NCBI GenBank assembly: GCA_020850695.1
Contig: JADZEF010000019.1
Location: 1 to 64,000, forward strand
DNA from: Planctomycetaceae bacterium
GTDB taxonomy: Bacteria; Planctomycetota; Planctomycetia; Planctomycetales; Planctomycetaceae
Reading direction: 5' to 3'
Length of the DNA: 64,000 bases
Part shown: positions 7,565-9,858 of the stretch, one piece after another
Numbering within the stretch: position 1 is the stretch's first letter
How the letters are laid out: each line of letters opens with the position of its first letter
Translations under genes and position numbers: made by a program
The notes under the pieces: model-generated
What the model saw: the letters and a program-made list of their open reading frames with translations, nothing else
Databases searched by the model: none
What the model was told of the DNA's origin: nothing

Positions 7565-8128
7565 TTCGAGTCCTTTCTATTGTTCTCTTGTACGGCTGAT
7601 GGATCCGGATTGCGCAATATGAAGAGTGAACCGCCAGGGGACGGCTGCATTGGGCAGGCGACGTCTTGAATGGCCCCTTGCGCGACTGCGCAAGCACATC
7701 GCATGCCCCGGAGCCTCGGATTGGTTATGGGCTCTGTCGAACCCGGCGCGAGTTCTGCCGAGGGGACGCGCACCGAACAATTCGGTCTCTGATCACCTCT
7801 CGAAGGACTCGAGGATGGCGGCACTGACGGAAGTAGTTCGCGGTGCCGCATCTCGCCGATGAGTCTGCCGTTGATTCCTCAACGCGCAGTGTGACCATTT
7901 CCGCCCCGTCCGATCTGCCGTCCGGCGAAATGGTCTCGTGCCCGACGTCGACACATCCCGGTAGGCGTCTCAGTCATGGGCTGAGGCGGCGGCCGTTTCC
8001 GTCCAGTCGTGGAGACAAATCGTATCCCCTGTGGGCGATCGTCCCGAATGGAACAGGAACTGCGAAACGAACGGCGGAGTTCAACTCGTCGTTCGAGCAT
8101 TTCGCCACGACCTCACGGATATCGACAC
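7565..8128. other. 564-bp divergent intergenic region with one imperfect palindrome
   Basis: No open frame here has conserved sequence or a convincing start. The one structure I see is an inverted repeat with arms GACCATTTC (7893-7901) and GAAATGGTC (7926-7934), extended by CGCC/GGCG with one bulge. It could be an operator for the divergent genes or a stem in a leader. Confidence 0.4.
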
Positions 8129-8614
8129 ATGGAATCGCAACGAATGTCGACTGCGGTTGGGACGGTAGAACCCCGCACGAGCCACGCGGCGGATGCCCGA
8201 TTGCTTCCCAACCTTCGGAGGGATATCGACGACGGATTGCCGACGGAACCGTCTCCGCGGGCGGCACGAATGGCACGAGCCCTCGGCTGGTTCAGCATTG
8301 GTCTGGGACTCGCCGAGGTTCTCGCACCACGCGCCATGGCGCGAATCATCGGCCTGGGCGAGGACTACCCACGACTCATGCCGCTGATGGGTGTCCGAGA
8401 GATTGCCACCGGCTGTGGCATTCTAGCCAGCACCAATCCTGCCCCCTAGCTTTGGATGCGGGTCGTCGGAGATGCCGTCGACCTTTCTCTGCTGGGCGCG
8501 GCCATGACCGACGACGACGCGCGGCTCGGCTGCGTTCAGCGCACCACCGCAGCCGTCGCAGGAGTCACGGCGCTCGACGTCCTGTCCGCCGTCCAGCACA
8601 GCGCTGGTGAATGA
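8129..8614 (+). pseudogene. small cyclase/dehydrase-type membrane protein interrupted by in-frame TAG
   Basis: The frame from ATG 8129 encodes a helical membrane protein (ALGWFSIGLGLAEVLAPRAM, then MGVREIATGCGILASTNPAP) that stops at a TAG at 8447-8449. The same frame continues without any shift: LWMRVVGDAVDLSLLGAA, then AAVAGVTALDVLSAVQ, ending with TGA at 8612-8614. Relatives of this small membrane-domain family read through this point with Trp-Leu-Trp, so TAG most simply reflects one G-to-A change of a TGG codon. Everything after the stop still looks protein-like, so the mutation is recent, or the stop is read through. The next gene starts 71 bp downstream on the same strand. Confidence 0.75.
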
Positions 8615-8685: not shown

Positions 8686-9858
8686 ATGAAGGCGCTTTGC
8701 TGGCATGGAACGGAAGATGTCCGGATCGACAATGTCGATGATCCCAGGATTCAGGATCCCCGCGATGCCATCATTCGCGTGACATCGACCGCCATCTGCG
8801 GTTCGGACCTGCATCTCTATGATGGCTTCATGCCCACCATGGAAAAGGGGGACATTCTGGGGCACGAGCCGATGGGCATCGTTGAGGAAGTCGGGAGCGC
8901 GGTGAAGAACCTGAAGAAAGGGGATCGCGTCGTCGTCCCCTTCGACCTCGCTTGCGGCGACTGCTTCTTCTGCAAGAAGCAGATGTTCTCGTTGTGCGAC
9001 ACGTCGAATCCGAACGCAGAGATGGCCCGGAAGGTCATGGGACATTCTCCCGCTGGCCTTCTCGGCTACTCACATCTCCTTGGCGGATTCCCCGGCGGAC
9101 AGGCGGAGTATCTGCGGGTTCCCTTTGCGGATGTCGGGCCGCTCAAGATCGAGTCGGACCTTCCGGATGAGAAGGTGCTGTTCCTGTCCGACATCTTTCC
9201 CACCGGCTACATGGCCGCGGAAAACGCCGAGATCGAGAAAGGCGATACGGTGGCTGTGTGGGGATGCGGGCCGGTGGCTCAATTCGCCATCCAGAGCGCC
9301 TGGATGTTCGGAGCAGGCCGTGTCATTGCCATCGACCGCGTGCCGGAACGCCTGGAGATGGCGAGAAAGCACGGCAAGGCCGAGACGATCAACTTCGATG
9401 AGGTAAAGGTCTACGACCGGTTGATGGAGATGACGAAGGGGCGCGGTCCCGACCGGTGCATCGATGCCGTCGGCGCAGAGGCCCACGCCACCGGATCGCT
9501 GGATGCGATCTACGACAAGGTCAAGACCGCGGTCTCCATGGGGACCGACCGCGTTCACGCGCTGCGGGAAGCCATTTTCTGCTGCCGCAAGGGGGGAACG
9601 CTGTCGGTCCCCGGCGTCTACATCGGCTTCCCCGACAAGCTTCCCTTCGGGGCTCTCATGAACAAAGGGCTGACGGTCAAGACCGGACAGACCCACGTCC
9701 AGAAGTATCACCGCGACCTGCTGAAGAAGGTCGAGGACGGAACCATCGATCCCTCGTTCGTAATTACTCATCGCCTCAAGCTCGAAGACGGTCCGCAAGC
9801 CTACAAAACCTTCCGTGACAAGAAGGACGGCTGCATCAAGGTCGTGCTCAAGCCGTGA
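8686..9858 (+). CDS. zinc-dependent alcohol dehydrogenase, glutathione-dependent formaldehyde dehydrogenase type
   Basis: A 390-residue medium-chain dehydrogenase. Catalytic zinc ligands Cys38 (ICGSD) and His60 (GHE) are present. Structural zinc cysteines are C90, C93, C96 and C104. The Rossmann glycine motif WGCGPVA is at 192-198. The long insert after the structural zinc site (about 105-150, [19 protein letters not shown]) is typical of the FdhA/glutathione-dependent formaldehyde dehydrogenase-like subgroup, which oxidises formaldehyde adducts or dismutates aldehydes with tightly bound NAD. AGGAG (8674-8678) seven bases upstream fixes the start. It lies at the edge of the stress cluster, consistent with aldehyde detoxification; the exact substrate is inferred. 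Confidence 0.88.

Follow-up and report, generated by a model that had tools for sequence, protein, structure and literature searches.

The window analysed here, meaning the whole stretch of 64,000 nucleotides from a Planctomycetaceae bacterium, carries on its plus strand a reading frame at positions 8129-8614 in which 106 codons are followed by a TAG (8447-8449), and then by 54 further codons and a TGA at 8612-8614. The codons around the inner stop are CCC TAG CTT TGG ATG CGG. Inspection of the frame along 8129-8614 revealed no frameshift, and the TAG is the sole inner stop of the gene. A sequence-only reading of this DNA had reported a single in-frame TAG at these positions, with an unshifted frame and a downstream half that continues to the TGA, and all of this was confirmed in the sequence. 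The ATG at 8129 is one putative start among others; the frame stays open upstream as far back as a GTG at 8009, and the conserved domain starts near residue 44-48 (about 8258-8270). The features of the locus are listed below.

8129..8446, plus strand: first open part, 106 codons from the putative start; predicted helices 26-34 (low confidence), 43-65, 67-74, 81-100 and the first two residues of 105-125
8447..8449, plus strand: in-frame TAG, in a column that is TGG (Trp) in 72 of 82 relatives
8450..8614, plus strand: second open part, 54 codons and the TGA; remainder of predicted helix 105-125, and predicted helix 133-159
8456..8458, plus strand: ATG (Met110), a possible restart codon, 6 nt past the TAG
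8686..9858, plus strand: zinc-dependent alcohol dehydrogenase gene, directly downstream, 390 aa if the ATG at 8686 is the start

The locus belongs to contig C19. The genome totals 8,605,273 bases spread over 440 contigs, with a contamination estimate of 4.92. The interrupted protein has one match in its own genome at E 0.001 or better.

Protein family and alcohol dehydrogenase neighbour

The product is a small, predicted helical protein, with four long helices in the structure model and a distant likeness to the family DUF4267. The model has a mean pLDDT of 85.9 and gives the helices listed above; in it, the stop at residue 107 comes just as the third long helix begins. DUF4267 (PF14087) is the best Pfam match of the read-through protein, with scores (15.7 bits for the interrupted protein and 18.4 for its first part alone) that do not reach the gathering cut-off of 27.8. 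Within alignment A1, 44 of the 52 members match the same family at E 0.1 or better, the best at 1.9e-6. There was no NCBIfam match to the interrupted protein, a Foldseek comparison with solved structures returned nothing at E 0.001, and a literature search for the term DUF4267 found no mention of it. The highest 19-residue hydropathy value in the windows tried is 1.21. Since the usual cut-off for membrane segments is about 1.6, the product is not called a membrane protein outright.

At the interrupted gene, and in 76 of the 82 relatives, a zinc alcohol dehydrogenase gene adjoins on the same strand; among the relatives it lies upstream in 36 cases and downstream in 40 (two overlapping cases, L030 and L068, are counted as upstream); for the remaining six, no neighbouring zinc alcohol dehydrogenase was present in the DNA examined. 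Two of the downstream cases, L006 and L007, were tested for further domains, and both have a Polyketide_cyc domain next in the same frame. For example, the gene of Noviherbaspirillum massiliense (L007) joins the shared domain to a following Polyketide_cyc domain (PF03364) in one open reading frame of 343 aa. These relatives resemble the interrupted gene in their first domain and in the adjoining zinc alcohol dehydrogenase gene, whereas the interrupted gene ends before any Polyketide_cyc domain. A shorter arrangement is found in L028, L057, and L065, where the alcohol dehydrogenase match lies only 92-163 nt downstream, a gap that appears too short to hold such a domain. At the interrupted gene, the dehydrogenase likewise follows after a short gap.

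Relatives and conservation on either side of the stop

The relatives compared here are the best 80 of 395 from a scan of genome contigs, together with a few from searches of genomes of the same family, class, and phylum. Two copies of the interrupted locus itself, five duplicates, and one of the pair L065/L146 were left out, giving 82 non-redundant relatives. The resemblance exceeds what chance would give: the read-through frame aligns with them past the stop at 41-63% identity, with most alignments beginning at about residue 44-48, and among the relatives in the alignment listing there are no stops anywhere in the aligned part. The column that holds the TAG is Trp in 72 of the 82 (all encoded by TGG), Ala in seven, Gly in two, and Phe in one; none has a stop there. 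The earlier statement that relatives have Trp at this point thus holds for the large majority and fails for ten. The single change from TGG to TAG that had been offered as the origin of the stop is still the simplest path, although it is unproven because those ten carry another residue.

No relative from the same genus appears among the 58 listed in one genome search, and four of 170 genomes in the same family have a match, the interrupted gene's own genome included; one of the four matches is weak (E 3.6e-4) and has two TGA codons inside. A scan of viral contigs found no relative.

Divergence was compared with the 71 relatives in which a nearly complete alcohol dehydrogenase is present as well, with rank 1 as the most divergent. 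The interrupted protein ranks 32 of 72 overall, 33 for the part before the TAG and 27 for the part after it, and its divergence is ordinary; the partner alcohol dehydrogenase ranks 8 of 72. No excess divergence is seen, and recent loss would not show in this comparison because the best identities, at 56% (63% over one short stretch), are too low to reveal it. A closer view comes from the columns under strongest constraint. Apart from the stop column, 28 core columns reach at least 85% conservation, and the interrupted protein keeps 26 of them when set against the 71 relatives. The two that differ are both downstream of the stop and have conservation of 86% and 89%; no core column at 92% or above has changed, the stop column aside. 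Downstream of the stop, all eight core columns conserved at 93% or more are intact, so there has probably been little free change in the second half; as a rough estimate, the share of such sites that can have changed freely would be fewer than about 30%, and anything beyond that is unlikely. Read plainly, this pattern suggests that the gene has had little time to decay since the lesion arose, or little freedom to do so.

Little freedom for decay would be expected if the second half were still translated. One way for this to happen was left out of the sequence-only reading, namely a restart at the ATG just past the TAG. Translation would stop at the TAG and begin again 6 nt on, so that helices 1-2 and helices 3-4 would become two polypeptides that assemble with each other. 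Stopping and restarting at nearby start codons is described for archaea and bacteria in PMC6728339, and in the structure model the break falls at the N-end of helix 105-125. It is also suggestive that none of the 82 relatives has Met at the position of Met110, where Gly (31), Ser (25), Ala (23), and Thr (3) are found instead. However, in-frame starts close to this position are common, with ATG, GTG, or TTG within three codons in 20 of the 82 relatives and within ten codons in 49, and Met110 would itself fall inside the predicted helix. A second example of such a split was not found among the 82, and no Shine-Dalgarno-like stretch was seen by eye; Planctomycetes are listed in PMC6728339 among groups where the share of strong Shine-Dalgarno motifs is very low. 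Taken together, we consider two assembling polypeptides to be a rather improbable outcome, and we are similarly doubtful that a four-helix protein made as one chain has become a pair of coupled subunits, each of two helices, translated from one message. If it were true, we would be seeing gene fission at the moment of a single base change.

Meaning of the stop codon

A different possibility is that UAG is decoded as an amino acid, at a low or regulated level, either by readthrough or by reassignment of the codon. The conserved downstream half is compatible with this, as is the observation that the stop in the interrupted gene and those recovered in searches for kinase and ABC transporter domains are all TAG. 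There is also a signal in the predicted RNA fold, where the 100-nt stretch spanning the TAG (8417-8516) has a z-score of -2.29 and only five of 200 shuffled sequences were as stable. On the other hand, the 60 nt from the TAG onwards fold no better than shuffled sequences (z -0.46), and the translation machinery speaks against special decoding. Release factor 1 (RF1) is intact, with a model match of 455.9 bits (cut-off 423.25) and no inner stops. Of 242 open reading frame ends selected by a model in a 408,526-base sample, 181 are TGA, 42 are TAG, and 19 are TAA, which shows TAG to be a normal stop in this genome.

The sequence-only reading had raised the idea of an amber suppressor, and no tRNA with a CUA anticodon was found among the candidates scored (150 of 201 in one first-look search and 150 of 1663 in another). 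Among 73 tRNA matches, all but one were called by ARAGORN, none of these with CUA, and the one that was missed reads GUC in the alignment. Three more were found later: a tRNA-Sec, another tRNA for Ser, and a gene resembling allo-tRNAs whose anticodon is UAU. A pattern search for a CUA loop combined with a standard T loop, a demand that a pyrrolysine-type tRNA could escape, gave 10 hits against 28 in a backward control. These hits have at most three of five anticodon-stem pairs in that register, four of the 10 lie inside ordinary Glu or Arg tRNAs, and an Rfam search at the hit in L191 found nothing. Recoding of UAG in the interrupted gene is not supported, because RF1 is intact, no CUA tRNA was found, and TAG is used as a normal stop.

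The identity of the other stops can be weighed against the spectrum that single-base changes would produce. By the codon usage of the 408,526-base sample, 56.5% of the one-base paths to a stop lead to TAG, 22.8% to TAA, and 20.8% to TGA. Finding TAG tells us little, because it is the stop most easily reached by one base. Given this spectrum, three TAG codons out of three would arise by chance with a probability of about 0.18, and a fourth domain interrupted by a stop has TGA; a code change specific to TAG was dropped on these grounds. Readthrough or reassignment at the interrupted gene is accordingly very unlikely.

An inner stop is present in one of 66 kinase matches in this genome and in one of 70 matches from the ABC search, which scored 150 of 195 candidates; in both cases the domain spans the stop. 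Their positions are as follows.

L157, contig C254, 9557-9559: TAG immediately following LSGGQRQRL in an ABC transporter domain that is matched both before and after the stop
L158, contig C82, 9425-9427: TAG in a protein kinase domain that is matched both before and after the stop

When kinases were searched for in 12 relatives, the best-scoring matches were all without stops, and the TAG kinase of the interrupted gene's own genome scores below those. A scan for coding character across stops marked 10 places (five TGA, three TAG, and two TAA), with the ABC case included; this count is not a rate, because the TAG of the interrupted gene and the kinase case were both unflagged. Three other places from the scan were tested with Pfam. 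The domain continues across the stop in L166, the integrase domain of L163 ends ahead of its TAA, and L159 has no domain. The last of these (C267:45000-63524) has a TAG at 1684 with a coding-like frame on either side. Elsewhere, two adjoining pieces of an ABC domain at C311:21632-22107 lie in open frames that differ in length, an arrangement suggestive of a frameshift. The TAG cases have the appearance of nonsense lesions scattered through the genome, or of errors in this assembly.

This last point bears directly on whether the base itself is correct. If the TAG is a sequencing or consensus error, the organism would have an ordinary codon here and an intact gene. The lesion is single, all core columns at 92% conservation or above are kept, and the sequence is a draft; the other isolated in-frame stops within conserved domains could equally mean consensus errors in such an assembly of 440 contigs. 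Nothing speaks directly against an error. The TAG follows a run of five C, but a miscounted run would have put the frame out of register, and no shift is seen. An error of this kind is a real possibility, though we regard it as somewhat unlikely.

The explanation that we favour, with a probability of roughly 0.55, is a recent one-base nonsense lesion in the gene for a conserved small protein, at which RF1 would act as at any other stop. The gene shares with nonsense pseudogenes of bacteria a single in-frame stop in an otherwise intact frame, and differs from them in having no second lesion. A conserved helical-protein gene would have been hit recently by a one-base nonsense change; with RF1 terminating at the UAG, and with a start at 8129, the product would be 106 residues long. 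In the structure model this product would break off just as the third long helix begins, and the gene would then most likely be a young pseudogene. The sequence shows the TAG itself, conservation before and after it, the residues of the relatives, and an intact RF1 gene; we infer that the organism really carries the TAG, that it arose recently, and that its product is not working. Some observations count against a young pseudogene. The downstream half has no second lesion, as would also be expected of a consensus error or of a half that is still translated; the other in-frame stops of this draft could equally be consensus errors; and the nearby start codon, 6 nt past the TAG, would permit a product in two pieces.

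More broadly, it is likeliest that the lesion is an ordinary one, either a true mutation or a consensus error, with no special reading of the stop. Of the three options first proposed, a recent pseudogene and a sequencing error both remain, while readthrough has lost support from RF1, the tRNAs, and the fold. An ordinary lesion agrees with the conservation, the release factor, the tRNA set, and the spectrum of stops to be expected, and the case illustrates how far sequence alone can judge a single in-frame stop.

Selenoprotein candidate and unusual tRNA genes elsewhere in the genome

The stop in L166 (C21:1-20000) may be of a different kind. On the minus strand, an in-frame TGA (8245-8243) lies inside a Thioredoxin_7 domain that is followed by PDZ domains. 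Within the motif FRCER*PECFHWD, the TGA takes the place of the second Cys of a CxxC. Starting at the TGA, a stretch of 60 nt forms an 8-bp hairpin with a GGU loop at nt 30-32, and the overall stability is close to that of shuffled sequences (z -0.03). A GGU loop placed in this way suits a bacterial SECIS element. A tRNA-Sec gene with the anticodon TCA is present at C238:2-95 (73 bits). The TGA may possibly encode selenocysteine, which would make L166 a putative selenoprotein.

A further tRNA-Sec-like gene lies on the minus strand (246-156) of L180 (C305:9955-10045), where it scores 36.4 bits against an Rfam cut-off of 47 and is not called by ARAGORN. Its loop is CUUAUAA, with the anticodon UAU, and the sequence can be read as a 9-bp acceptor stem, a 3-bp T stem, and a long variable arm. 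This layout of stems and arm resembles that of allo-tRNAs as described in PMC7609411, where Clostridia, Proteobacteria, and Acidobacteria are named as hosts.

The genome also has clusters of tRNA genes, with 12 on C40 (9748-12259) and eight on C123 (3991-5062), corresponding to L119 and L120, and others on C242, C177, C72, and C174. The clustered tRNAs are mostly low-scoring, and many of their anticodons duplicate those found elsewhere in the genome. Perhaps they belong to a mobile element or to a second genome in the assembly.
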